A DNA stretch of 47,151 nucleotides from the NCBI RefSeq assembly GCF_006861775.1, contig NZ_VDGG01000013.1:1-47151 (forward strand), in the 5' to 3' direction. The translations under genes were made by a program, and so were the position numbers. Shown here one piece after another: positions 21,727-35,775 of the stretch. The DNA comes from Psychrobacillus soli (lineage in GTDB: Bacteria; Bacillota; Bacilli; Bacillales_A; Planococcaceae). The notes under the pieces are model-generated. The model did not search any database, was not told where the DNA came from, and worked only from the letters and a program-made list of their open reading frames with translations. How positions within the stretch are numbered: position 1 is the stretch's first letter; the number at the start of each line of letters is the position of its first letter.

Positions 21727-22023
21727 TTAATTGTTTTTATTGTTACGTTGTCTACTACGAGCTTCTCCGCCCTTAGATCCAATTTCTTCATAAAAGTCTC
21801 TGTCATGATTTTCAGAAGTAGCTTCTCCACCTTTACGACCGATTTCCTCGTTAAAGTCCCGGTCATGATTTTCAGAAGTAGCTTCTCCACCTTTACGTCC
21901 AATTTCCTCGTAAAACTCACGATCATGATTATTAGAGGTAGCTTCTCCGCCCTTACGTCCCGCTTCTTCGACAGTCATGTTTTCATCATTGTTTCTGTTG
22001 CGATTGTTCTGTTTGTTAGCCAT
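21727..22023 (-). CDS. gsiB: General stress protein GsiB-like (KGG repeats)
   Basis: 98 residues, highly hydrophilic. Four 20-residue repeats share the core EEIGRKGGEATSENHDRDF, nearly identical to B. subtilis GsiB units; KGG occurs four times. Such proteins resemble plant LEA/hydrophilin proteins and are thought to protect against desiccation and stress. The start has AGAGGAGG upstream. A SigB-like promoter lies 55-79 bases before the ATG. The DNA repeats of about 60 bp are part of the coding sequence. Confidence 0.92.
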   Translation of the reverse strand: MANKQNNRNRNNDENMTVEEAGRKGGEATSNNHDREFYEEIGRKGGEATSENHDRDFNEEIGRKGGEATSENHDRDFYEEIGSKGGEARSRQRNNKNN

Positions 22024-23139: not shown

Positions 23140-24630
23140 TTAGCTAGGGAACCAGCCTACCGGTTCTACGTTTAGTCGCGTATTAATTTGCTTAATTTCT
23201 TGGAAATCCTCTATTCCATACTTTCCTAGACTTCGACCAATTCCACTTTGTTTGTACCCACCCCACGGAGCCTCTACATAAGTTGGGTGATAATCATTAA
23301 TCCAGGTAATGCCGGCACGAATTTTCTTGATAACGCGAAGAGCTTTTGCCCCATCATTTGAGAAAACACCGCCAGCAAGACCAAAGTCCGAATCATTCGC
23401 CAATCGAATTGCTTCTTCTTCTGTACTAAATTTTTGAATTGTGACAACTGGACCAAAAATCTCTTCTCGAACAATACTCATATCATTTGTAACATCTGTA
23501 AAAACGGTAGGTTTAATAAAAAAGCCTTTATCTAAACCATTTTCAGTTAAACGGTAGCCGCCTGCTGCTAATGTTGCACCTTCTTCTTTACCTATTTCAA
23601 TGTATTTTAATATACTATTCAACTGTGCTTCACTAACAATTGCACCTACATCATTACCTTCTTCCAAACCGGGACCTACTTTAATTTTATTTGCACGTTC
23701 TACGTACCGCTTAACATACTCATCATAAATACTTTCTTCTACTAAAATACGACTTCCAGAGGAACAAACTTGACCCGCTCCGTAGAAAATACCAAATAAT
23801 CCATAATCAACTGCTATTTCAAAGTCTGCATCTGCAAAAATAATATTAGGAGATTTACCACCTAGTTCAAGCGATATTTTCTTTAAATTCCCAGCTGCTG
23901 CACGCATTATTTCACGCCCCACCTCTGTACTTCCAGTGAATGAAACGACATCTACATCTTTACTTTCTGCTATTGTTTGACCAACAATCGAACCACGACC
24001 TAGCACCATATTCGCAACACCTTTAGGAACCCCTACTTCTTCCATAATTTCGAATAACTTCATCGCAGTTACAGGTGTTACTTCCGCTGGTTTATAGACA
24101 ATCGTATTTCCAGCTGCAAGTGCTGGTGCAATTTTCCAAACACTCATTAAAAGTGGGAAATTCCATGGAACAATCAAGCCTGCCACGCCTACTGGTTCTT
24201 TTACAACAATTGCTTGCACGTTATCGGGTACCTGATATGTTTCACCATCTGGATGTAAAATTATCCCCGCATAGTAACGAAAGCATGTCGCTGCATCAGC
24301 AATATCAAATACTGCTTCTGCCTTACGCTTTCCGTTATCCATTGTCTCTAAAATCGTTAGTTCTTCTGCACGCTCTTCGATTTTATCGGCAATCGCGTTT
24401 AATATAGCTGCACGTTCATGCGTCGTTTTACCAGACCAAATCCCACTCTCAAATGCTTCACGCGCAACACTAATTGCCTCTTCTGTTTCTTCTTTACTAG
24501 AGCGCGGTGCATGCGCAATCACTTCCTGGTTCGCTGGATTAATGACAACACTTATATCTCCCGAAGCTGCTGATCTCCACTCACCATTAATATAATTTTT
24601 TAGTTCTAATACGTTTGTTAATACTGTCAT
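23140..24630 (-). CDS. Betaine-aldehyde-dehydrogenase-like NAD(P)+ aldehyde dehydrogenase
   Basis: 496 residues. The catalytic cysteine is C289 (GQVCSSGS), the general base E255 (LELGGKS), and PWNFPL marks the cofactor pocket. The sequence is close to B. subtilis GbsA, including its ending in W-F-x-S, so the substrate may be an amino- or betaine-type aldehyde. It is the last gene of the sigma-54 operon, 26 bases after the reductase, with GGGGGA before its ATG. In an N-demethylase operon it might oxidise an aldehyde product; that is inferred. Confidence 0.9.
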   Translation of the reverse strand: MTVLTNVLELKNYINGEWRSAASGDISVVINPANQEVIAHAPRSSKEETEEAISVAREAFESGIWSGKTTHERAAILNAIADKIEERAEELTILETMDNGKRKAEAVFDIADAATCFRYYAGIILHPDGETYQVPDNVQAIVVKEPVGVAGLIVPWNFPLLMSVWKIAPALAAGNTIVYKPAEVTPVTAMKLFEIMEEVGVPKGVANMVLGRGSIVGQTIAESKDVDVVSFTGSTEVGREIMRAAAGNLKKISLELGGKSPNIIFADADFEIAVDYGLFGIFYGAGQVCSSGSRILVEESIYDEYVKRYVERANKIKVGPGLEEGNDVGAIVSEAQLNSILKYIEIGKEEGATLAAGGYRLTENGLDKGFFIKPTVFTDVTNDMSIVREEIFGPVVTIQKFSTEEEAIRLANDSDFGLAGGVFSNDGAKALRVIKKIRAGITWINDYHPTYVEAPWGGYKQSGIGRSLGKYGIEDFQEIKQINTRLNVEPVGWFPS

Positions 24631-24656
24631 TTCTATTCCCCCTAAATAATTTGATA

Positions 24657-25622
24657 TTAAATTTTAATAGCAATTTTTTCAGATTTAGCTCTTGAACAAC
24701 AAGTTAAAATAGAATTACGTTTTTTACGATCTTCCGCTGTTAAAAATACATCGCGATGATGAATTTCACCTTCAGCCACATCTAATTCACAACTGCCACA
24801 TCCCCCTATTTTGCAAGCATGTGGTGCATCAATACCAGCGTTTAATAATGCTTCTAATAGTGATTCATTCTCACTTACACGAATCGTTTTGTTACTATCT
24901 ACAAGCTCTACAGTGAACGCATTTTTTGGTTGATCATCTTTACCAGCAGAAAACAATTCAAAATGAATTGCTTTTGAAGGATACCCATATGATACTGCCG
25001 CATTCCGGTAGTCTTGAACCATTTTTATCGGACCACAGAAATATACATGTGTACCAATACGATGAGTCACCATAGAAGTCGGAAACATCTTTTTTGGATC
25101 ATCTCCACGAGAAAAGTAGAAGTGACATCGATCGCCATACTCATCTTTTAGCTGTTCATAAAACGCACATTGCTCAGCAGTTCTAGCAGCATAGTGAAGT
25201 TCAAACGTTTGCCACTCTTGTAAATCTTTCATCATTGTTAGAAATGGTGTTATACCTATACCTGCTGCATAAAAAACATGATGCTTTGCTTGGTAGCTTA
25301 ATGGGAAATGGTTCTTTGGAAAACTGATATCAAGTGTAGTACCAACAGTAATTTCCTTGTGCCAGTAAATAGAACCTCCTGTGGAGTAGTCATCTTGTCT
25401 AATTGCAATTTCATAGAAATTCCGTTCTGTCGGTAAGCTCACAAGAGAATATGTTCTCTCTAAAATATCGTCATCTTTATGGAGAAAAGTTTTTATATGA
25501 GCTCCACCCGTGAAAGCTGGCAATGGTAGTTTGTCTATTGGACTAAATCGAAATCGTTTTACAAATTCTGTTTCTTGTATAATTTCATCAACTTTGACTG
25601 GAATATTCCCAACAACTCTCAT
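24657..25622 (-). CDS. Flavin/2Fe-2S reductase of the N-demethylase system (VanB/DmmB-like)
   Basis: 321 residues. It is laid out as a ferredoxin-NADP reductase FAD domain (RTYSL, 56-60), a pyridine-nucleotide domain (AAGIGITPFL, 119-128; FCGPIKMV) and a plant-type 2Fe-2S domain at the C-terminus with C270, C275, C278 and C308/309. It would pass electrons from NAD(P)H to the haem subunit. I start at MRVVGNIPVK (25622), behind GGGAG; a 37-codon extension overlaps the upstream gene. It starts five bases after the DmmA-like stop. Confidence 0.9.
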   Translation of the reverse strand: MRVVGNIPVKVDEIIQETEFVKRFRFSPIDKLPLPAFTGGAHIKTFLHKDDDILERTYSLVSLPTERNFYEIAIRQDDYSTGGSIYWHKEITVGTTLDISFPKNHFPLSYQAKHHVFYAAGIGITPFLTMMKDLQEWQTFELHYAARTAEQCAFYEQLKDEYGDRCHFYFSRGDDPKKMFPTSMVTHRIGTHVYFCGPIKMVQDYRNAAVSYGYPSKAIHFELFSAGKDDQPKNAFTVELVDSNKTIRVSENESLLEALLNAGIDAPHACKIGGCGSCELDVAEGEIHHRDVFLTAEDRKKRNSILTCCSRAKSEKIAIKI

Positions 25623-25627
25623 CTTAA

Positions 25628-26143
25628 TCAACTCCCTACTTTTTGCCGTTGCACGACTGGTATAAATGGATAGCCAATATAACCTTTTCTGACTACTGAA
25701 AAGAATGATCCTACTTCTAAATGAGTACCACAACTACACTTTACAGTTTGCTCATCCAATGAAATTTCAGATGCATTAAAGCACTTCATACAGTAGACAT
25801 AGCGCTTTTTCTCATCCGTTATGAACGTTTGGATTTCTTCTTCTGAGGCACCTTCTTCAACTGACATTGAAAAAATCTTGCATGCAGTATCCCATTTGGC
25901 AGCGATATATATTTGCGTACCTATTTTTTGAGAGCTAATAAATTCACGAATTGTTTCATCCTGCAGCCACTCTGTAACTAATAGTGAACTAGTTGGTAGA
26001 TTATTGACTTCTTTAAGAAATGCTTCCGCTTGTAGTTTTCCACTTTCATCGAACATTACAGCAATTTTCGAACGCTCTTGAAGTAGTGAAAACTCCTTGA
26101 CCAATGACGTGGATTGGTCAAATAATACGGGGCGGTTATACAT
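25628..26143 (-). CDS. DmmA-like subunit of a haem-dependent amine monooxygenase
   Basis: 171 residues from ATG 26143 (AAAGGAG upstream; a TTG one codon earlier is less well placed). The N-terminal 110 residues are alpha/beta. The C-terminus has a zinc-ribbon-like pattern, C118xxC121 and C136xC138, then HLEVGSFFSVVRKGYIGYP. This resembles the C-terminal signature of DmmA, a subunit of bacterial dimethylamine monooxygenase. The place between the DUF3445 gene and the reductase agrees with such operons. Its exact task is not settled. Confidence 0.78.
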   Translation of the reverse strand: MYNRPVLFDQSTSLVKEFSLLQERSKIAVMFDESGKLQAEAFLKEVNNLPTSSLLVTEWLQDETIREFISSQKIGTQIYIAAKWDTACKIFSMSVEEGASEEEIQTFITDEKKRYVYCMKCFNASEISLDEQTVKCSCGTHLEVGSFFSVVRKGYIGYPFIPVVQRQKVGS

Positions 26144-26157
26144 CAAAATTCTCTCCT

Positions 26158-27147
26158 TTACGCTTTATTTTCTACTGCCTTTAATTTTTCTTTTTCTCGA
26201 CGTAAATATTCCACAGATTGCGGTAAGTAAGGGGCAATTCCTTTATACTCAGCCATTTCTTTTGGGATATCCTGAAGTACGCTATACGTTAAGTCGAACC
26301 ATTCTTGTCGTAATTTCAAATCTTCTAATGGTAAAAATTGTGTATTTAAAACAAATAAGATGGCATTACTTCTAGGCATACGATAGAACTTTTGCTCCTC
26401 TACTCGAAGACGAACAAGCTCACCCGCATTTTCTGGAGTGATTAAATCTCTTTCCGGTCCCCATACATCCATCGTTTCGTAGTTAACATCCCAACGATTC
26501 GCCATTAAGTTCCAATTTATTCGTGTCCATGGTTCACCTGGCTCAACGGAGAGCAGAAATCTACGAATGCGATCCGCAAGTTGATCTCCTTTTCGTGAAA
26601 CAAATGGAACAGGCCCATGAATCTCATTAAAAGACATCCCTTTATTCCAATGTGCTGAAAATAATGCTGCATAAGACACTTGTCCAACTTCTAAGTAAAA
26701 GTTGTCATCACGATGAACCATCAGAACAAAATCATTATGAAAATGACGCCCAATATAATCAAAAGGCTCTAATTCTAATGTGGATGAATCACCAAATATA
26801 AAAGAATCCACTTCACCTAAAATATTGTTTTTAAAGGTCCAATTTTGACCATCCTTAATAACTTCAAAATGTTGAGGATAACGACTAACCGCCATATCAA
26901 CAAGCATTTCAAGCACTTCCCATTGCATCTCATGGGTATGGGGGTAGGACTGGTAACGCACTTCTGGTTGTTCTTCTAATAGACGCCTCTTCGTACGTAC
27001 TTGCAGTTCATATTCCGGTGTAATTTCTACACAGTTAATATTTTGTAATTTGCGTAAATCATTTGAATAACGATAATTACCTGTAGTGAAGGGAAACGGA
27101 AATGTCTCTAAATCAGTTGTTTTAAAATCTAGTTTCTGTGTAAACAT
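26158..27147 (-). CDS. Haem-dependent oxidative N-demethylase subunit (DUF3445)
   Basis: 329 residues. The DUF3445 signatures are clear: RHFHNDFVLMVHRDD (134-148), then LFSAHWNKGMSFNEIHGPVP with IHGPVP at 176-181. In this family a PAS-like fold binds haem and removes methyl groups from small amines such as dimethylamine, giving formaldehyde and the demethylated amine. Start behind AAGGAG. 21 bases after the permease gene and 14 before the DmmA-like gene. The substrate here is unknown; a gene for glutamine-synthetase-like N-methylglutamate formation is not nearby. Confidence 0.85.
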   Translation of the reverse strand: MFTQKLDFKTTDLETFPFPFTTGNYRYSNDLRKLQNINCVEITPEYELQVRTKRRLLEEQPEVRYQSYPHTHEMQWEVLEMLVDMAVSRYPQHFEVIKDGQNWTFKNNILGEVDSFIFGDSSTLELEPFDYIGRHFHNDFVLMVHRDDNFYLEVGQVSYAALFSAHWNKGMSFNEIHGPVPFVSRKGDQLADRIRRFLLSVEPGEPWTRINWNLMANRWDVNYETMDVWGPERDLITPENAGELVRLRVEEQKFYRMPRSNAILFVLNTQFLPLEDLKLRQEWFDLTYSVLQDIPKEMAEYKGIAPYLPQSVEYLRREKEKLKAVENKA

Positions 27148-27168
27148 ATTAATTTGCTCCTTTCGGGA

Positions 27169-28599
27169 TTAAAGTGCTTTATTTTTAAGATCTTCAGATG
27201 ATAATGCAATTGGTTCACTAATCTGATCAACTTCATATTTAAATACATATTTGGCTGAAATATAGTAGGAAATCAATGCTGCAAAATAAGTTGGAATACC
27301 TGCTGACATATATAAAAACAGCCCACTCGACTCAAACGTAAGCGGGTTGTACAACCCCCAGTAAACAATTACTCCTACAATAATTGCGACAATGGCAGAA
27401 GGATTTATTCCTTTCCAGTACGTATAAGATCCTTGTGTATCATAAAGCTGCCTAAGAGAAATGTTTTGCTTCTTAACGAAGAAATAATCCGCAATAATAA
27501 TCCCGCCAAGACTCGCCATCGTGAAGGAAATAATGGACATGAATGATCCAAAGGCATTATAGAATGTGGAACTTAGTAATAGGAATACAGTTGGAATAGT
27601 TGTTGACATTGAAAAAAGCCATGTTTTTTTAGAAAACAAAGTTTTAAAGCTCACCGCTTGAGAATACATAAGAAAAATAGTTGCCCCTACATTAGCGACT
27701 GTTAATAAAATCAAACCAATTAAACCGCCGTATGTACCTGCAATAGCCATCATCCAACTTGCTGGATCTAAGGAACCTACAACTAACGCAGCAAAGGCAC
27801 CTACAACTGCTGCTAAACAAACAATGACACCATAACTATAAAAGCTAGCTTTAAATGCACTACTTTCTTTCTTAGCTAGCCTACTATATTGCCCTAAATA
27901 AGGTAGCCATGAAAATCCTAAACCAATATTAATCTCAAGGGCAGTTACAAACGAGCGTGAACTTGTCTCAAATGGTTCTGCAGGAAGAAGAGTATTTAAA
28001 GCAGGAATATGTTTACCAAACAAAATAATCCCTAATAGCCCAACTAAAAAGAGAATAAAAGCCGGTACCGCAAAAAGATTAAATTTTCGAATTGCAGCTG
28101 GTCCGCGAGCTGTTATTACAAACGCAATTCCAAAGAGTAAAATAGCAAAAAACGGTGCACCTGTAGTCTGATTACTAAAGAAAGACGGTGTATTAAGCCA
28201 CGCTGCAATTTCCACCACTGCTTGACCTGCCATAAACAAAGCAATCGACATATAACCAAGTGTTAAAATTAAAAAAATAAAGAAAAAAGCATTAGCACCT
28301 TTATAGCCAAGTGAACTACGGAACCCAACAAATGTATCAATACCATACCTTGCAAAGTAAAGAACGATGGGCGCAATTAAAAACATTGGAAATGCATTAC
28401 CAAAAAATATAGCTGCAAGGGATTCTTGTGGCCCTAGCATAGTACCCGTATAGGCACCTGTTAAAAGACCGAATGCAGATAACCCAATCACAACTTGTAC
28501 AAGCATCAAATCCCAAAAACTGAAAATACGTTCTTTTTTATCAGTTGGTAAAAATCCAAATGCAATATCTTGTGTAACAGAAGAACTCTGTTTTGACAT
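27169..28599 (-). CDS. NCS1-type (cytosine/purine/allantoin-like) permease
   Basis: 476 residues with about twelve hydrophobic helices. The NCS1 features are FWDLMLVQVVIGLSAFGLLTGA near the start, RYGIDTFVGFRSSLGYKG in the loop after helix 3 and SMISFTMASLGGIIIADYF-like residues late. I start at MSKQSSSVT (28599) behind AGAGGAGG. Known substrates are purines, hydantoins, thiamine precursors and other small nitrogen compounds. In this operon it probably imports the amine or its precursor (inference). Confidence 0.88.
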   Translation of the reverse strand: MSKQSSSVTQDIAFGFLPTDKKERIFSFWDLMLVQVVIGLSAFGLLTGAYTGTMLGPQESLAAIFFGNAFPMFLIAPIVLYFARYGIDTFVGFRSSLGYKGANAFFFIFLILTLGYMSIALFMAGQAVVEIAAWLNTPSFFSNQTTGAPFFAILLFGIAFVITARGPAAIRKFNLFAVPAFILFLVGLLGIILFGKHIPALNTLLPAEPFETSSRSFVTALEINIGLGFSWLPYLGQYSRLAKKESSAFKASFYSYGVIVCLAAVVGAFAALVVGSLDPASWMMAIAGTYGGLIGLILLTVANVGATIFLMYSQAVSFKTLFSKKTWLFSMSTTIPTVFLLLSSTFYNAFGSFMSIISFTMASLGGIIIADYFFVKKQNISLRQLYDTQGSYTYWKGINPSAIVAIIVGVIVYWGLYNPLTFESSGLFLYMSAGIPTYFAALISYYISAKYVFKYEVDQISEPIALSSEDLKNKAL

Positions 28600-28668
28600 A
28601 AAATCCTCCTCTAATATCATTCTTATCGCCAGTGTTGGAAAAATACTTTCCGCATGGTATTCTAAAAG

Positions 28669-28872
28669 TTATAGAATCGTTAGGATTAGTAATGTTGTGA
28701 TCAAGCCCATTATTAAAGTTACTCCACTAAGGTCTCTCAAATTAATATGTGCTGTTTTATCCTCTTGGTTCCTTTCGAAATATTGAATTCGTTCTTCTAA
28801 ATCTTCGTACATGCCACGAATAAATGGATCCTTAGATTGTAGATTCTTATCGATTTTAGTAACCGCTTTCAT
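28669..28872 (-). CDS. Small tail-anchored-like membrane protein
   Basis: 67 residues. Residues 1-45 are charged and probably helical (DPFIRGMYEDLEERIQYFERNQ), and residues 47-67 form one hydrophobic helix at the C-terminus (GVTLIMGLITTLLILTIL). The start has AAAGGGGGG upstream. First gene after the sigma-54 promoter and 69 bases before the permease, so perhaps a small partner of it. I know no family and infer no function. Confidence 0.7.
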   Translation of the reverse strand: MKAVTKIDKNLQSKDPFIRGMYEDLEERIQYFERNQEDKTAHINLRDLSGVTLIMGLITTLLILTIL

Positions 28873-28927
28873 TTTCTCCCCCCTTTATTAAAATATTAAT
28901 AAAATTTTCTGTCTTATACTAATCTAT

Positions 28928-28944
28928 TGCAAGTATCATGCCAA
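28928..28944 (-). promoter_or_regulatory. Sigma-54 promoter of the amine-demethylase operon
   Basis: The minus strand reads TTGGCATGATACTTGCA: -24 TGGCA and -12 TTGC with canonical spacing. It lies about 55 bases before the first gene of the operon and opposite to the activator gene. Confidence 0.88.
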
Positions 28945-29047: not shown

Positions 29048-30850
29048 ATGATAGAACATTCTATTTTACTTCAGATTTACGATCAACTAATTTTTACAAC
29101 GACTGACGGAGTAATTTGTCATATTGTTGGAAATCATTCAGAACTATTTGAAACGCCATCTACTAATAAAACAAAAACAATTAAGGACTTAGAAACCCAG
29201 TTATTTACGGAAAGTATATTTTCACAGATAGAAACGAATCCAAAAAAACAAATTTTCCTCCAAACAGCATGGGTAGGACTCGAAATACTCACAACTATTT
29301 ACAAGGATAAAAATCATTTTATTTTTGCGTATAAGATTCTTAATTCTACCTATAGAGAAATAGGTGAATCTCAACAAGTTGATTTCAAATATTTTCCCTT
29401 TATTGTTAACAGTAGAGAGATGGAAGATGTAGCTTTTAAATTACAGAAGATAGCTACTGTTGGAGCAACAGTACTTTTACTTGGTGAATCAGGAGTAGGT
29501 AAGGGAATGGCAGCAAAAGCGATTCATAAGATAGGCGCTCGTCAAAACAAGCCATTTATCTCTATTAATTGTGGGGCAATACCAGAGAACTTAATTGAGA
29601 GTGAATTATTTGGATTTGTAGACGGCGCGTTTACAGGAGCCAAAAAAGGTGGCATGGAGGGAAAATTCCGCCAAGCACATACTGGTATTTTATTTTTAGA
29701 TGAAATTGGCGAACTATCACTTACGTTGCAAGTCAAGTTATTACGAGCAATTGAAGAACGTGTAATTACCCCTATTGGAAGCACTATTTCTTATCCAGTA
29801 GATATACAAATTATTGCAGCTACAAACCAGCTTCTTGAAGAAGCAGTAGCAAAAGGTGAGTTTCGTGCAGATTTATATTATCGATTAAACGTTATTCCTG
29901 TTAATATTCCACCTTTACGTGATCGGGTAGAAGAGATTCCATCTCTTATCCATCATTTCACGCTAAAATACAATAAGCTTTACCAAAAACAAGTTAAGTT
30001 TTCTCCAGATGCAATTGATTATTTATGTATTCAACCGTGGCCAGGAAATATTAGGGAGTTAGAAAACATGGTGGATCGTCTAATTGTATTATCTAATACA
30101 TCCGTTATTACAAGCCCAATAATAGAAGCGATAGTTCCTCCAAAACCTATAATTAGAGCTAACCGACCTATAATTAATCATTTAATGCCGCTTCAAGAAG
30201 CTGTAGAAATGATAGAAGAAGAATTGATAACAATGGCTATGGAACAATACAAATCTGTGAAATTAGCTTCCAATGTACTAGGAATTAGCCAACCAACCAT
30301 GAGTAGGAAATTTAAAAAAATTAGGGAGTTACAAACAAAAGATGGTAGCTTAATGAGTAAACGAAGGATTTTAGAAGAGCAATTAAACAAACAGTTACGC
30401 TCCATTACTATAGTTACAGCAGTTACAATTTTACCTGAAGAAGTAAGAATGGCTATGAAAGATACATCTAATGCAGCACTTCGTGCACCTTTAGTCCAAA
30501 AGTTCACGGCGATTTATCAACAAGAAGGCGGAATCAAATGGGTGTTTATTTTTCAGATGCTACCTGATGGGAGAATCATTCAAATAGCTTCAAGTGATGA
30601 TTTCGTAATAAAACCCGGCGAAGAATATATTGGTCCACCAGAAATGATGAAAGTTATTTATGATGCATTTAAAGGCAAGGACGGTGTGACTCCTTTATAT
30701 GAAGATAAATACGGGGAATGGAAAACAAGTTTTGCTCCATTGTATGATGAATTAGGAGAAATCATTGCAATCATTGGCTATGATTACAGTAAAGAGTATA
30801 TTAATAGCGAATTACAACGCCTCAGCAGGCAACTTAATGTAACAATTTAA
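29048..30850 (+). CDS. Sigma-54 enhancer-binding activator with C-terminal Cache-like sensor
   Basis: 600 residues. The N-terminal 115 residues look like a divergent PAS-type domain. The AAA+ core has Walker A GESGVGKG (146-153), GAFTGA (193-198) and Walker B LFLDEIGE (215-222). The Fis-type HTH is at about 403-424 (VKLASNVLGISQPTMSRKFKK). Unusually, 170 more residues follow; WVFIFQMLPDGRII and WKTSFAPLYDELGEIIAIIGYDYS look like the strands of a Cache/PAS sensor. It is divergent from the operon and surely its activator. RBS AGGGGTG. Confidence 0.9.
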   Translation: MIEHSILLQIYDQLIFTTTDGVICHIVGNHSELFETPSTNKTKTIKDLETQLFTESIFSQIETNPKKQIFLQTAWVGLEILTTIYKDKNHFIFAYKILNSTYREIGESQQVDFKYFPFIVNSREMEDVAFKLQKIATVGATVLLLGESGVGKGMAAKAIHKIGARQNKPFISINCGAIPENLIESELFGFVDGAFTGAKKGGMEGKFRQAHTGILFLDEIGELSLTLQVKLLRAIEERVITPIGSTISYPVDIQIIAATNQLLEEAVAKGEFRADLYYRLNVIPVNIPPLRDRVEEIPSLIHHFTLKYNKLYQKQVKFSPDAIDYLCIQPWPGNIRELENMVDRLIVLSNTSVITSPIIEAIVPPKPIIRANRPIINHLMPLQEAVEMIEEELITMAMEQYKSVKLASNVLGISQPTMSRKFKKIRELQTKDGSLMSKRRILEEQLNKQLRSITIVTAVTILPEEVRMAMKDTSNAALRAPLVQKFTAIYQQEGGIKWVFIFQMLPDGRIIQIASSDDFVIKPGEEYIGPPEMMKVIYDAFKGKDGVTPLYEDKYGEWKTSFAPLYDELGEIIAIIGYDYSKEYINSELQRLSRQLNVTI

Positions 30851-30934: not shown

Positions 30935-31394
30935 CTATTTTGCTACCAACTTCTTGGTTATATCTGATGCCAATTCTACTTGAAGATCCGTATATGGTAG
31001 TGCAGCTTGGCGATAGCCTTTATTAGCAATTTGCAAGCCGTACGGAACAGTTACATTCGACAAACCTATAGTTGATGTACGCGCAACAGCACCTGGCATA
31101 TTTGCCCACTGCGTAATGTACAACACCATATACTTCATAAGTAGGATTACTATGGGTAGTAATTCAATCAATTGTTTCAATGGAATCACCCTGATCTACC
31201 GCTACATCCACTACAACAGATCCCTTTTGCATCGTTTGTATCATTTCTTTTGAAACTAATTGTGGCGCACGAGCACCTGGAATTAGCACAGCACCAATTA
31301 ACAAATCTGCTGTTTTAACTGCCTCAGCTATATTGTAGGTATTTGATGCACGTGTACGAACACGTCCTTGGAACAAATCATCTACCCCACTCAT
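30935..31394 (-). pseudogene. ald: Alanine dehydrogenase remnant
   Basis: The translated pieces match the C-terminal half of alanine dehydrogenase: [20 protein letters not shown], then [10 protein letters not shown], then [20 protein letters not shown]. About 190 N-terminal residues are missing, and the remnant starts eight bases after the aldehyde dehydrogenase stop. A TGA (31164-31166) stands where family members have Arg after ETID. A one-base insertion near 31105 then shifts the frame. The last 20 residues are also aberrant. When intact it would have returned pyruvate for the aminotransferase and released ammonium. Confidence 0.9.
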
Positions 31395-31402
31395 TCTTAT
31401 AA

Positions 31403-32842
31403 CTAGTTTTGATTTATTACTACCAGCTTCATTTCTGTCATTTCCTCAATTGCATATTTTAGACCTTCTCTACCCATACCACTTTCCTTCACGCCACCAT
31501 AAGGTAAATGATCTAAACGGAATGTTGGTATATCATTTACAATGACACCTCCTACGTGAAGTTTTTGCGTTGCCTGTAAAGCAACATGGATATTATCTGT
31601 ATAAATACCTGCTTGCAACCCGTATCTTGAGTCATTTACTTGATTAAATGCTTCTTGAATAGATGTGAACTTCATAATAGATACTATTGGTGCGAATACC
31701 TCCTGACAGGAAACCTTATGCGCCGACTTTACATTTAATAGTACAGTAGGTTGTAATATATTCCCTTCGGATTCACCACCAGTTGCAACAATTGCCCCTT
31801 GTTCTTTTGCTTCTTCAATCCAACTTAAAGCACGTTTTACATCTTGTGGACTAATTAGGGCCGAAACATCTGTTGCGGGATCAAGCGGATCACCTAGCTT
31901 CAATTCTTTTGTAGCTGCTATAAATTTATCTACAAACAAATCGTACATTTTTTCGTGAACATATATTCGCTGTACTGAAATACATACCTGTCCTTGGAAT
32001 GCAAATGCCCCGGATACAACACGTGGGATTAATTTATCGATATTAACATTTTCATCAATAATAACGGCCGCATTAGAACCCAATTCAAGCGTTACTTTCT
32101 TTAAACCTGCCTGATTGCGTATGCCAATACCTACAGTTGGACTACCTGTGAACGAAATCTTTTTCACTCGCTCATCCGTTACTAGTTTATTTCCAATCAA
32201 GGAACCTGCACCTGTAACGATATTTAACACACCCTTTGGCAATCCTGCCTCAGCTAATAATTCACCAATAAAATAGGAAGTTAATGGTGTTTGACTTGCA
32301 GGCTTTAATACAATTGAGTTACCAGATGCTATTGCAGGTCCTAATTTATGCGCTACTAAATTCATCGGGAAATTAAATGGCGTAATAGCTGCAACAATAC
32401 CTAATGGTTCACGAACTGTATAAGCAATGCGCCCTTCTCCTCCTGGCGCAGCATCTACTGGAATTGTTTCCCCATGTATACGCTTTGCTTCTTCAGCAGC
32501 AAATTTATATGTTTGAATAGTACGTAGAACTTCCACTTTTGCGGTTGAAATAGGCTTCGCTGCCTCCAGTGCTATAAGCTCTGCCGCTTCCTCCACACGT
32601 TGTTCTAATAAAGCAGATAATTTTTCAAGAATAACCGCACGCTTATAAGCAGGCATGCTTGCCATCGTTTCACGAGCAGCATCGGCAGCAACTAAAGCCG
32701 CTTCTACTTCCTCCACTGTTGCCTTCGGTATTTCTGCAATGACTTCACCACTATACGGTGAACGTAATTCTGTATACTCTGTCGCTTCTACCCATTCTCC
32801 ATTTATAAATAAATCTTTCTTTATGATTGTTTTCTTCAACAT
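31403..32842 (-). CDS. NAD(P)+-dependent aldehyde dehydrogenase
   Basis: 479 residues. The catalytic cysteine is C287 ([11 protein letters not shown]), the general base E253 (LELGSNA), and PFNFPM marks the cofactor site. It belongs with lactaldehyde, phosphonoacetaldehyde and sulfoacetaldehyde-type dehydrogenases more than with the GbsA-like enzyme of the other module. ATG 32842 follows AGGTGGGG; an upstream GTG is less suitable. Located 19 bases after the aminotransferase gene, it probably oxidises the aldehyde made by that enzyme. The actual aldehyde is unknown. Confidence 0.9.
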
Positions 32843-32861
32843 TATCACCCCACCTTTCTAG

Positions 32862-34172
32862 TTACAGCGTAGTTGCTGTTATCTTATTCTCAACTTCTTG
32901 AATCGCTTTATCTAAAAGATTTAATAAATCTTTTAATTCTGCTTGGCTTATTGATAAAGGCGGTGAAAATACAACAACATCCTGACCATCAAGTACAACC
33001 GCACGGCATATTAAGCCTACCTTAGCTGCCTCCAAAACTATTTGTGGGGCTAGTAGACTTCCTTCAGAGAAGACTTCAAGACCTGCCATTAAACCTAAGC
33101 CTCTTGCGTTCACAATAAATGGATACTTCGCTTGTAATGCTTTTAACCCTTCTAAAAGCTCTTGACCACGAGCGGCTGAATTTGCTACTAAATTTTCTTT
33201 TTCAATAATCTCAATATTTTTCAATCCAACTGCGCAAGCCATTGGATGTCCACTATACGTATATCCATGCAATATTGTTCCTACTGATAGTTCAGAAAAT
33301 TCTCTGTGTATTTTCTCAGAAATCATTACGCCACCCAATTGTGCATATCCACTAGTAACACCTTTTGCAAAGCACATCATATCTGGTACCACGTTATAAT
33401 GTTCCATAGCAAAAAACTTACCTGTTCTACCAAAACCAGTAATAACTTCATCAGTTATCATCAATATTCCATACTCATCGCAAATTTCACGAATTTCTTT
33501 GAAGTAATTTTCCGGGGCAACATGCACACCCCCAGCACCTTGTACTGGCTCCGTTATGAAAGCAGCAATTGTTTCAGGTCCTTCAGTTTCAATTAAGTCA
33601 CGTAATGCTTTTGTTGAGAAATGATCTACGTATAAAAAATCCGGTGCATTTGAATTGGTAAAATCACGAAATGCTTTTAAACCCGTGGCACTTGTAGCAC
33701 CGATTGCTACGCCGTGATAAGATTTTGACCTTGAAATTATTTTCTTACGAGATACTTCCCCTTTTAATATCCAATAATGACGAGCCAATTTATAGGCACT
33801 ATCATTGGATTCAGAACCACCAGAAGTAAAAAACGTTGTACTTAAGTCACCCGGTGCTAGTCCTGCTAACTTTTCTGCTAATAGAATGGCAGGTTCATTA
33901 CTAAACGTTGCAAAACAAGAGCTGAAGGCTAGTTTATCCATTTGCTCTTTTGCTACTTCACCAAGTTCTGTTCTGCCATGGCCGATATTCACATTCCAAA
34001 GTGATGACATACCGTCAATTACTTTTTTGCCAGTAATATCATACAGATAAACCCCTTTTCCTTCTGTAAAAATGAATGCTGGTCCATTTTCCGTCTTTAC
34101 CGGTGAAGTAGGGTGTAGAAAATGCTTTTGATCTAACGCTCTAAGTTCTTCAATAGAATAATTTCTTTTCAT
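32862..34172 (-). CDS. Class III (omega) aminotransferase, pyruvate-type
   Basis: 436 residues. The PLP lysine is K270 (CFAKGVTSG), the Asp is in ITDEVITGFGRTG (239-251), and TSGGSESND (116-124) binds the phosphate. The sequence resembles beta-alanine- or taurine-pyruvate aminotransferases. The start is MKRNYS (34172), nine bases after GAGAGG; the ATG three codons earlier touches the ribosome site. Together with the adjacent aldehyde and alanine dehydrogenases it fits a classic amine + pyruvate scheme. The amine cannot be told from sequence. Confidence 0.9.
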   Translation of the reverse strand: MKRNYSIEELRALDQKHFLHPTSPVKTENGPAFIFTEGKGVYLYDITGKKVIDGMSSLWNVNIGHGRTELGEVAKEQMDKLAFSSCFATFSNEPAILLAEKLAGLAPGDLSTTFFTSGGSESNDSAYKLARHYWILKGEVSRKKIISRSKSYHGVAIGATSATGLKAFRDFTNSNAPDFLYVDHFSTKALRDLIETEGPETIAAFITEPVQGAGGVHVAPENYFKEIREICDEYGILMITDEVITGFGRTGKFFAMEHYNVVPDMMCFAKGVTSGYAQLGGVMISEKIHREFSELSVGTILHGYTYSGHPMACAVGLKNIEIIEKENLVANSAARGQELLEGLKALQAKYPFIVNARGLGLMAGLEVFSEGSLLAPQIVLEAAKVGLICRAVVLDGQDVVVFSPPLSISQAELKDLLNLLDKAIQEVENKITATTL

Positions 34173-34222
34173 AAGATACATCCTCTCAGTTAATTGTTAT
34201 GGAACTATACACATAAGTAATA

Positions 34223-34239
34223 TGCAAGAAGCGTGCCAA
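34223..34239 (-). promoter_or_regulatory. Sigma-54 promoter of the aminotransferase operon
   Basis: The minus strand reads TTGGCACGCTTCTTGCA, a full match to the -24 TGGCACG and -12 TTGCA consensus. It lies about 50 bases upstream of the aminotransferase start. Confidence 0.92.
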
Positions 34240-34324
34240 CTATTAAAATACGACTTACTTGTATTTCGAATATGAGTTGATTTAATTTTAAATTAATTCT
34301 TAATTTTAAGTTGATTTAATTCTT

Positions 34325-34352
34325 AATCTTAATTAAGATATTGATTAAGATT
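34325..34352. promoter_or_regulatory. Inverted repeats upstream of the activator (candidate enhancer site)
   Basis: AATCTTAAT (34325-34333) and ATTAAGATT (34344-34352) are inverted, and a 14-bp perfect palindrome ATCTTAATTAAGAT occupies 34326-34339. It lies about 90-110 bases from the -24 box, a usual enhancer distance. Confidence 0.5.
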
Positions 34353-34377
34353 ATTCAATATCTAAGGGGTTCATGGG

Positions 34378-35775
34378 ATGGAAGACTTAATTTTAAATAA
34401 GATTATTGAAACATCAAATAATAATATTACAGTTATTGATAGTGAGGGAATAATTGTCCATTCTAATCCAGAGCATTGGGTGAACTATGGTATGAAGCCT
34501 GGAACATATAAAGGTACATCCATTTATGATCTTGAAAAGGAAGGTTTATTAGCTCCATCTATTGGAGCAATTGTATTAAATGAAAAAATAAAAAAAACCA
34601 TTTTACAACATACCAAAACTGATCGAGTAATCATGTCTACAGGTTACCCTGTCTTTGATGAAAAAGAAGAATTATTATTCGTCGTAAGTTATAGTCATGA
34701 TCAGACTGAAATACTAGAGTTACAGCAACAATATGAAAAAATGGAAAGGAAAGTGAAAGGTTATCAAACCGAGGTTGAAGAATTGCGTGAAAAGGAATTT
34801 GAACAAAATGGTATTATCGCCCGGAGTAGTGCAGCACAGCATATTTTAAAAACAATCTATAACATTTCCAAGACTGATGCAACAGTGCTCCTTTTAGGTC
34901 CATCAGGTGTTGGAAAAAGTACATTTGCACGTATTTTGCATAGCCATAGCAATCGTAAAAAGGAGCAATTTATTGAAGTGAACTGCAGTACGATTCCTGA
35001 GGGGCTATTTGAATCTGAAATTTTCGGCTATGAAACTGGAGCTTTTACCGGTGCGAATAAACAAGGAAGCGAGGGATTAATTGAACAGGCGGATGGCGGA
35101 ACATTATTTTTAGATGAAATCGGGGAACTACCATTATCTATGCAAGCGAAATTATTAAAAGTATTACAAGAAAAAAAAATAAAACGGCTTGGTGGTAAAA
35201 AAGAACGCACAATCAATTTCCGTTTAGTTACGGCGACAAATCAGGATTTAGAAAAAATGGTACAAGAAGGACGATTTCGTTTAGATTTATACTATCGTCT
35301 AAATGTCATTCCATTACAAATTCCCTCTTTAGAAGAACGAAAAGAAGATATTTCTTATTTGGTTCAAGATTGTCTTCAAAAATTCAACAGTGCCTATAAT
35401 GTAAAAAAAAGAATTCATCCATCAACGTATGATGTCTTCACCAACTATAACTGGCCAGGTAATATCCGAGAGTTAGAGAACTTGATGGAGCGCCTTATCC
35501 TTACTATTGAAGATGAAGTCATATATCCTACTCATCTACCTGCAAACTTTAACACTTTCCAAACAAATAGTAGTTTCTCTTTAGATAATATAGAACAACC
35601 ATTAAAAGTAACAAATAATTTAAAGGAAATATTAGAAAATACGGAAATCCAAATCATTCTTAAAGCTTTAAAAAAATGCAAAACAACTTATGAGATGGCC
35701 ACTTATTTAGGCATTAGTCAGCCTACCGTTATTTATAAGTTGAAAAAATATAAAAATAAACTTGATCACTCTTAG
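34378..35775 (+). CDS. Sigma-54 enhancer-binding activator (PAS-AAA+-HTH)
   Basis: 465 residues. There is an N-terminal PAS-like domain (1-110, ITVIDSEGIIVHSNPEHW), a coiled coil (112-143) and an AAA+ core with Walker A GPSGVGKS (174-181), GAFTGA (221-226) and Walker B LFLDEIGE (243-250). A C-terminal HTH of the TyrR/RocR kind covers about 437-460 (YEMATYLGISQPTVIYKLKK). RBS AAGGGG. Divergent from the aminotransferase operon, whose sigma-54 promoter it should activate. The PAS domain probably senses the inducing amine or a product. Confidence 0.92.
   Translation: MEDLILNKIIETSNNNITVIDSEGIIVHSNPEHWVNYGMKPGTYKGTSIYDLEKEGLLAPSIGAIVLNEKIKKTILQHTKTDRVIMSTGYPVFDEKEELLFVVSYSHDQTEILELQQQYEKMERKVKGYQTEVEELREKEFEQNGIIARSSAAQHILKTIYNISKTDATVLLLGPSGVGKSTFARILHSHSNRKKEQFIEVNCSTIPEGLFESEIFGYETGAFTGANKQGSEGLIEQADGGTLFLDEIGELPLSMQAKLLKVLQEKKIKRLGGKKERTINFRLVTATNQDLEKMVQEGRFRLDLYYRLNVIPLQIPSLEERKEDISYLVQDCLQKFNSAYNVKKRIHPSTYDVFTNYNWPGNIRELENLMERLILTIEDEVIYPTHLPANFNTFQTNSSFSLDNIEQPLKVTNNLKEILENTEIQIILKALKKCKTTYEMATYLGISQPTVIYKLKKYKNKLDHS

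Follow-up and report, generated by a model that had tools for sequence, protein, structure and literature searches.

The window, by which we mean the whole 47,151-nucleotide stretch of Psychrobacillus soli DNA that was analysed, contains an operon of six genes on the minus strand, preceded by a sigma-54 promoter element and faced by a divergent activator; all of the operon genes were found at the place where a sequence-only reading had put them. The features are as follows.

23140-28872, minus strand: whole operon unit (six genes), accompanied by the sigma-54 site and divergent activator listed below
23140-24630, minus strand: aldehyde dehydrogenase, nearest to betaine aldehyde dehydrogenases (BADH) and aminoaldehyde dehydrogenases (Aldedh, BADH and solved-relative matches)
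24657-25622, minus strand: flavin/2Fe-2S reductase, DmmB-like (Fer2, NAD_binding_1, DmmA-like_N)
25628-26143, minus strand: DmmA-like subunit with a four-Cys motif (NF041259 under cut-off, hhalign, AF2 model)
26158-27147, minus strand: HODM/DmmC-like haem oxygenase alpha subunit (DUF3445), clade I (PF11927, 5lte match, tree)
27169-28599, minus strand: NCS1 family permease, with ATG at 28599 after a Shine-Dalgarno-like GAGGAGG
28669-28872, minus strand: 67-residue single-TM protein with counterparts beside NCS1 in clade I
28928-28943, minus strand: sigma-54 promoter element TGGCATGATACTTGCA (GG-N10-GC), strictly matched in homologous intergenic regions
29048-30850, plus strand: divergent sigma-54 activator (AAA+ at about 29402-29902, HTH, C-terminal Cache-like sensor at about 30347-30832)
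31403-34181, minus strand: neighbouring pair of an aldehyde dehydrogenase (31403-32848) and a class III aminotransferase (32862-34181)
34378-35775, plus strand: second sigma-54 activator, divergent from this pair

The gaps within the four-gene enzyme part were measured as 14, 5 and 26 bases, in agreement with the 5-26 bases given previously, and 21 bases separate this part from the permease gene. Another ATG occurs earlier in the permease frame, at 28620, and the searches were run from 28602, one residue longer; if the start is at 28599, the gap between the permease and the 67-residue gene is 69 bases. The proposed sigma-54 control was borne out by the activator-operon gaps, in which the -24/-12 element was detected in 34 of 37 regions with a strict pattern and in 36 of 37 with a relaxed one, against a background rate of 0.028 sites per kb per strand. 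These regions comprised 36 loci plus the window; L009, L042, L046 and L047 (activator absent from the fetched stretch) and L011 (not entered) lay outside the scan. Because the enzyme gene order recurs across clade I loci and the promoter site far exceeds its background rate, the operon and its promoter are beyond chance.

The divergent activator matched Sigma54_activat with 213.9 bits and carries the GAFTGA motif, and the genome encodes sigma-54 itself (rpoN at C7:66587, 406.7 bits, over cut-off). Inverted repeats ahead of the promoter amounted to two short pairs, with no clear enhancer site among them. The second activator is 35% identical to the first over their common part and is without the first's C-terminal domain. 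Two other loci, L015 (66% and 71% identical) and L016 (aldehyde dehydrogenase 72% identical), likewise have the neighbouring aldehyde dehydrogenase/aminotransferase pair upstream of their activator; the pair possibly represents downstream genes of the system, its membership being uncertain, and its aminotransferase is not GabT.

Membership of the alpha subunit in the DUF3445 family was confirmed by profile (PF11927, 185.5 bits against a cut-off of 25), and the protein also matched 5lte, the solved HODM chain of Pseudomonas mendocina (phmmer E 2.2e-60). Among the 80 loci kept, 42 belong to a second Bacillales set (clade II) whose oxygenases share 41-47% identity with the window protein. In a quick tree containing 30 of the 42 named clade II loci together with L012 and L014, with L011 left out (L011 and L039 are seemingly one contig, both having 38,259 bases), the Bacillales clade I oxygenases formed one side of a branch of length 1.83 with SH-aLRT support of 100, separate from both the proteobacterial DmmC/HODM and clade II. 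Fifteen alpha-subunit sites are nearly fixed in clade I and different from clade II and five proteobacterial rows, and 42 sites, one His (H177) among them, are common to all three. The suggestion that such a system was new to Gram-positive bacteria was overstated, given the second Bacillales set and the annotation-based listing of dmmABC for an actinobacterium, Nesterenkonia, in PMC8875376.

The DmmA-like subunit proved to be a relative of DmmA that lies under the curated cut-offs (PF22289, 22.5 bits versus 27.4; NF041259, 48.4 bits and 9.1e-13, versus 60): a profile of 39 Bacillales rows aligned with three annotated proteobacterial DmmA proteins at an hhalign probability of 99.2 (E 3.2e-19). 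C118, C121, C136 and C138 are invariant in the 39 rows. The AF2 model had a pLDDT of 93.7, and at a Foldseek E <= 0.001 it gave one match, phthalate dioxygenase reductase 2pia with a TM of 0.40, and no clear fold relative. The flavin/2Fe-2S reductase was upheld by Fer2 (57.6 bits, 1.3e-15) and NAD_binding_1 (32.3 bits, 1.7e-7), both over cut-off, with DmmA-like_N (PF22290; 33.9 bits, 5e-8) barely above its cut-off of 33 and FAD_binding_6 (19.9 bits, 9e-4) below its cut-off of 21.1. The Dmm three-subunit set is thus present, with the alpha subunit and reductase recognised by profile and DmmA by hhalign, and from these family assignments the haem, the flavin, the electron flow and the C-N cleavage of the clade I system are predicted.

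As in HODM (5lte) and in DmmABC of Ruegeria pomeroyi, the genes for a PF11927 alpha subunit, a DmmA relative and a reductase adjoin, in the order alpha-DmmA-reductase here and DmmA-reductase-alpha in three annotated proteobacterial loci. In contrast to those systems, no DmmD, purU, folD or GmaS gene was found next to the window operon, which belongs to a separate clade and has in addition an NCS1 permease, its own sigma-54 activator and a dedicated aldehyde dehydrogenase. The clade II loci (L053-L094) have the same three genes in the window's order; NCS1 and a clade I-type activator were not recognised in them, save one activator-cluster member in L071. The comparison between clades covered 41 clade I and 44 clade II loci; the neighbour table drew on open reading frames from about 3.5-18.5 kb of each locus, and neighbours were counted up to 7 kb from the oxygenase gene at all 85 of 85 loci. 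L023 yielded no reductase, and its activator, permease and aldehyde dehydrogenase are fragmented or short. Clade II neighbours include a squalene-hopene cyclase and an alpha/beta hydrolase.

The permease belongs to the NCS1 family, as had been read from the sequence (PF02133, 93.8 bits, cut-off 23.5), and scores below the cut-off of the TIGR00800 subfamily (93.2 versus 353.1); it also matched the hydantoin permease Mhp1 (E ~6e-12). The 67-residue membrane protein, present as described and single-TM, had no family match in the profile searches. Counterparts were located by script in 29 of the 32 NCS1-bearing clade I loci, with one more noticed in L010. In L105, which belongs to a genome without any HODM match (G102), a relative (25% over 55 residues) is found ahead of an NCS1 relative as well. 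None was labelled in the nine loci without NCS1, by a low-sensitivity labelling that overlooked some of the script-found ones. Combined, these observations make the small protein a probable partner of the NCS1 permease. An APC permease occurs at ten clade I loci, nine of them without NCS1.

The operon aldehyde dehydrogenase (Aldedh, 598 bits, 1e-179) has S. aureus BetB (E 4.2e-161) and plant BADH/aminoaldehyde dehydrogenases (E ~1e-137 to 1e-130) as its closest solved relatives. Because it misses the BADH equivalog cut-off (TIGR01804, 609.6 versus 668.6), the label GbsA-like stands for resemblance only, and in contrast to BetB its setting is an amine oxygenase operon rather than choline oxidation. 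Its pocket residues are mostly common to S. aureus BetB and so do not indicate a single aldehyde. The enzyme is present at 40 of the 41 clade I loci, the exception being L041 (none beside the operon), whereas none of the 44 clade II loci gave an aldehyde dehydrogenase match in the fetched stretches (E 1e-10).

The recurrent clade I neighbours that were identified are an APC permease, hemA, GabT, an SSADH-like aldehyde dehydrogenase, GabR and rpoN. Eight of 40 genomes, from two or three lineages, have a GabT gene over cut-off next to the operon; the genomes tested cover every named clade I locus except L042 (37 of 38), plus G000, G032 and G051. In Kurthia sibirica (L027) a GabT and SSADH-like pair directly follows the operon aldehyde dehydrogenase, and each of the eight GabT genes is followed by an aldehyde dehydrogenase 67-100% identical to that of L027. 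The SSADH-like neighbours tested scored 625.8, 645.5 and 644.2, just below the SSADH cut-off of 646.35. The expected number of adjacent genomes is about 0.17 (over-cut-off copies per rounded genome size, summed to ~8.06 per Mb and applied to a stretch of 21 kb), with the eight observed genomes not being independent. GABA linkage as a universal trait was ruled out: 32 of the 40 genomes have no adjacent GabT, in 16 of them no GabT reaches the cut-off anywhere, and the window's genome (G000) has none over the TIGR00700 cut-off.

An extra hemA was found at 8 of the 41 clade I loci, and each of those eight genomes has two copies over cut-off, compared with one each in two controls; this bears at most indirectly on haem B binding by the alpha subunit. 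In a hemA tree covering seven of the eight operon loci (the L046 copy was absent and the L047 copy was entered twice, as L047_op and L117), the operon copies grouped at 76/72, and six of them, excluding Ammoniphilus (L047), at 100/100, with a program warning about long branches meeting; the Ammoniphilus copy may have been recruited separately. At the clade II locus L055, a hemA-like open reading frame lies 6.6 kb from the oxygenase gene.

Genes of one-carbon metabolism were also compared. The three annotated proteobacterial Dmm loci carry an aminomethyltransferase, purU and folD, with GmaS also in R. etli, whereas DmmD, aminomethyltransferase, purU, folD, GmaS, glutamate-synthase-type and methylamine genes were found at 0 of 41 clade I loci in the fetched stretches. 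None of 35 clade I genomes, the window's among them, had a GmaS that reached the cut-off. Aminomethyltransferase, purU and folD were likewise found at 0 of 44 clade II loci, and GmaS at only two (L085 and L094, with glutamate-synthase-type genes); GmaS was absent from four clade II genomes tested. Since most clade II loci are without these genes too, their absence is a weak contrast for clade I, and the absence of GmaS is compatible with another fate for methylamine.

Our preferred reading, to which we give a probability of about 0.45, is that the operon encodes a module, under sigma-54 control, for the use of a secondary amine taken up by the cell; this amine would be one other than dimethylamine, its identity being a guess. 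In favour of this reading are the family matches, the separate clade, the near-constant presence of the aldehyde dehydrogenase and its kinship with BADH/aminoaldehyde enzymes, the extra hemA copies, the conserved promoter, the GabT neighbours and the lack of adjacent C1 genes. Against it count the small number of genomes and lineages with an adjacent GabT, the window's genome not being among them, the SSADH-like scores just below cut-off, the weak C1 contrast and the locus L041. The activator would sense a ligand and open the -24/-12 promoter, and the NCS1 permease, probably with its 67-residue partner, would bring the substrate in. The reductase and DmmA-like subunit would carry electrons from NAD(P)H to the haem-PAS alpha subunit, which with O2 would hydroxylate the carbon adjoining the nitrogen, breaking the C-N bond to give an amine and an aldehyde. 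The aldehyde is probably an amino-aldehyde, which the co-transcribed aldehyde dehydrogenase would then oxidise to an amino acid; certain hosts may process this further with a transaminase of the GABA type and a semialdehyde dehydrogenase. The earlier proposal of a haem N-demethylase held for the family; demethylation by clade I is one candidate activity, and an oxygenase acting on a larger N-alkyl group or a ring carbon suits the GABA genes beside the operon in some relatives, and its dedicated aldehyde dehydrogenase, at least as well. A substrate other than plain dimethylamine is favoured by the gene context. A bolder version, which we consider unlikely, has clade I acting as a haem-PAS monooxygenase on saturated N-heterocycles, whose rings it would open: pyrrolidine (or piperidine) would be alpha-hydroxylated to 4-aminobutanal (5-aminopentanal), from which the operon aldehyde dehydrogenase would make GABA (5-aminovalerate), and the route would be completed either by GabT/GabD or by the aminotransferase and aldehyde dehydrogenase next to the operon. 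Literature on cyclic-amine oxidation and secondary-amine monooxygenase gave nothing relevant among the matches listed.

The HODM fold is, to our knowledge, characterised chiefly with dimethylamine as its substrate. A Gram-positive dimethylamine monooxygenase would be in keeping with the three-subunit set shared with DmmABC and with the 42 sites, H177 included, that clade I, clade II and the proteobacterial rows have in common. Such an enzyme would yield methylamine and formaldehyde, and the aldehyde dehydrogenase would detoxify the formaldehyde, taking over from the THF route; DmmABC alone suffices for dimethylamine demethylation in E. coli according to PMC5520151. The long and separate clade I branch argues against this explanation, as do the resemblance of the aldehyde dehydrogenase to BADH/aminoaldehyde enzymes and the lack of adjacent methylamine and C1 genes. 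Clade II mostly lacks C1 genes as well, which shifts some weight from our preferred reading to the dimethylamine explanation; we regard the latter as somewhat improbable. NCS1 proteins are, as far as we know, not usual methylamine carriers, and we know of none for polyamines.

The carrier bears differently on the demethylation of some other N-methylated compound, such as N-methyl-GABA, N-methylhydantoin or dimethylglycine, in which the aldehyde dehydrogenase would again serve for formaldehyde; this is the view of the sequence-only reading. NCS1 carriers include Mhp1, and the adjoining GABA genes in the eight genomes would suit N-methyl-GABA. The identified recurrent clade I neighbours, however, include no hydantoinase and nothing specific to demethylation (most other clusters are unannotated), and ten loci carry an APC permease, nine of these being without NCS1, leaving this explanation rather unlikely. 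The same GabT neighbours and the aminoaldehyde-type dehydrogenase would agree with an oxygenase that splits spermidine-type amines into a diamine and an aminoaldehyde, the latter being oxidised to GABA or beta-alanine; in addition to the carrier, the absence of polyamine genes among the identified neighbours, most of the others being unannotated, makes this very improbable.

Returning to the module for a secondary amine, its regulatory arrangement resembles that of a Bacillus thuringiensis GABA operon under sigma-54 control, in which, according to PMC4428206, gabT is found with the activator GabR; in both, a sigma-54 activator adjoins genes of amine or amino-acid catabolism. The window activator differs from the GabR system in having a Cache-like domain after the HTH and in facing an oxygenase operon. 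If ring opening were true, it would give the HODM fold a non-P450, non-demethylase role coupled with a heterocycle-type NCS1 carrier. Overall, a conserved Bacillales branch with its own aldehyde dehydrogenase, carrier, regulator and sometimes a haem-synthesis gene provides a concrete candidate for a second function of the family, and the clade I operon is a candidate Gram-positive route by which amine nitrogen and carbon may be obtained.

The six genes named by the sequence-only reading are all present, and their products were compared with Pfam and NCBIfam profiles. In order of transcription they encode a 67-residue protein with a single transmembrane segment, an NCS1 permease, the alpha subunit (DUF3445/HODM, the haem dimethylamine monooxygenase family), a DmmA-like protein, a flavin/2Fe-2S reductase and an aldehyde dehydrogenase (ALDH), with intergenic gaps of 69, 21, 14, 5 and 26 bases; the last three agree with the 5-26 base spacing claimed for the four-gene enzyme part.

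23140-28872, minus strand: operon of six genes
29048-30850: divergent sigma-54 activator, its Cache-like sensor domain placed after the HTH rather than in the usual N-terminal position
30938-31394: two separate alanine dehydrogenase remnants, aligning with 73 residues (70%) and 47 residues (68%) of the intact Planococcus protein
31403-35775: paired aminotransferase and ALDH genes, plus a second sigma-54 activator divergent from them

By eye, a protein at 21727-22023 with repeated GGEATSxNHDRxFYEEIGRKG-like units resembles KGG-type stress proteins.

A scan of a species-genome collection confirmed 201 relatives, of which the best 80, all bearing Bacillales-type names except L042, were compared together with five further loci. 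These 85 loci divide into clade I (n=41; L015-L052, L009-L011), the branch of the window, and clade II (n=44), and this neighbourhood survey in Bacillales, which had been proposed from the sequence, found the gene set recurring in clade I. A quick tree was built from 78 rows. A branch of length 1.83 (SH-aLRT 100) sets apart all 41 rows of clade I, made up of the window and 40 loci, and five proteobacterial rows form a separate group; clade II requires two changes and is therefore not one clade in this tree. A raw count gave 15 sites at which clade I is nearly invariant and differs from the clade II and proteobacterial sets, and 42 sites common to all three. PMC8694187 gives the haem-binding PAS domain of the solved chain 5lte (Pseudomonas mendocina) as 155-290, and by position mapping from the alignment about 11 of the 15 sites would lie within that range.

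PF11927, the alpha subunit family, has one match in the window's genome and none in the 18 other genomes of the genus; with the own genome counted, matches occur in 5 of 151 genomes and in 4 of 398 drawn from the phylum. A 396-kb Bacillus badius plasmid carries a relative 70% identical, with the whole gene set and an annotated hemA. The module appears to be patchy and to have moved between genomes. L042 is a clade I gene set lacking the activator; its contig was assigned by binning to Ignatzschineria (Gammaproteobacteria), reflecting either transfer or mis-binning.

Within clade I, the oxygenase is accompanied by a DmmA relative (41/41), the reductase and the operon ALDH (40/41 each), the activator (37/41) and NCS1 (32/41). 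An APC permease occurs in 10/41, one of which (L040) has both, so that every clade I locus has one or other carrier type. The small membrane protein was detected by script in 29 of the 32 NCS1 loci and by eye in L010; in the remaining two, where it was not found, the left flank extends for no more than 2.0 and 3.2 kb. A genome lacking any HODM match also has it ahead of an NCS1 relative, so it probably partners the permease and is not an oxygenase subunit.

L105:8866-18237: small membrane protein and NCS1 relative, then FAD-linked oxidase, Fe-S and ETF-like genes; no HODM at the locus (by eye)
L015:4804-6207: rpoN adjoining the activator gene (Planococcus)
L017:14984-20721: second sigma-54 activator, alcohol-dehydrogenase-like gene, membrane protein and ALDH, a few kb behind the operon (Peribacillus; names by eye)

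ORFs of the L015 rpoN cluster are also present in L016, L028 and L029.

Eight of the 41 operons additionally contain a glutamyl-tRNA reductase gene (hemA), immediately upstream of the alpha gene in seven and at the operon end, after NCS1, in Ammoniphilus. Each of these eight genomes has two hemA copies over the cut-off and two control genomes have one each; six operon copies form one 100/100 group separate from the housekeeping copies. The extra copies provide independent, indirect support for the oxygenase needing haem.

The natural reading of the family is a haem oxygenase acting on an amine. The further suggestion of a substrate other than plain dimethylamine is favored by context, and as the best reading it is given a little under even odds: the clade I ALDH and the failure to find C1 or methylamine genes beside clade I speak for it, but clade II mostly lacks C1 genes as well. 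Among the proteobacterial loci viewed, three were annotated and a fourth record was not; aminomethyltransferase, purU and folD are present in each of the three. R. etli adds GmaS (a glutamate-ammonia ligase of type III) and genes of glutamate-synthase type, and the other two have sarcosine oxidase genes. Two of the 44 clade II loci bear GmaS.

L085:12948-18585 and L094:3403-9033: neighbours of the clade II oxygenase include GmaS, genes of glutamate-synthase type and a protein of N-methyltryptophan-oxidase type

We read these glutamate-synthase-type genes as N-methylglutamate synthase, and the two loci are candidates for a Gram-positive route from dimethylamine to N-methylglutamate. BLAST (E 1e-15, 28% identity) detected none of these gene types in the stretches of the 41 clade I loci, nor aminomethyltransferase, purU, folD or sarcosine oxidase beside the 44 clade II loci. 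GmaS over the cut-off was found in 0 of 35 clade I genomes and 0 of four clade II genomes tested, with the R. etli plasmid recovered as positive control.

The nearest solved relatives of the operon ALDH are BetB of S. aureus, then plant BADH and aminoaldehyde dehydrogenases. D109, D112, F158, W165 and W456, which we take to be the counterparts of the plant substrate-pocket residues, are retained in 40 or 41 of 41 ALDH rows; as BetB is identical except for Tyr at 158, these residues would indicate only a BADH/aminoaldehyde-like enzyme.

GABA transaminase (GabT) exceeded the cut-off in the fetched flank of 8 of 40 genomes (L027, L028, L029, L031, L032, L034, L035, L038), in three arrangements across two or three lineages of the quick tree. 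A succinate semialdehyde dehydrogenase (SSADH)-like ALDH follows in all eight (the three profiled fall just below the SSADH cut-off), and a GabR-cluster ORF adjoins in all except L027 (the one profiled, from L028, is over the GabR cut-off). The L017 ALDH is 50% identical to the SSADH-like protein of L027. Across the 44 clade II loci, ALDH had no match and class III aminotransferase one weak match (L094; 27% to GabT, not GabT by profile). On the flank where relatives have the GabT pair, another class III aminotransferase and another ALDH are present in the window and in Planococcus. For the window copies, the aminotransferase has the amine transaminase 6fyq as its closest match, and the nearest solved relatives of the ALDH include ALDH21 and lactaldehyde dehydrogenase. 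Alanine dehydrogenase on this flank is intact in L015, decayed in the window and was not seen in L016. The boldest form of the non-dimethylamine reading, with pyrrolidine or piperidine as candidate substrate, is unlikely on balance; it would account in a single scheme for the heterocycle-type carrier, the ALDH of aminoaldehyde type and the GABA genes that some relatives have.
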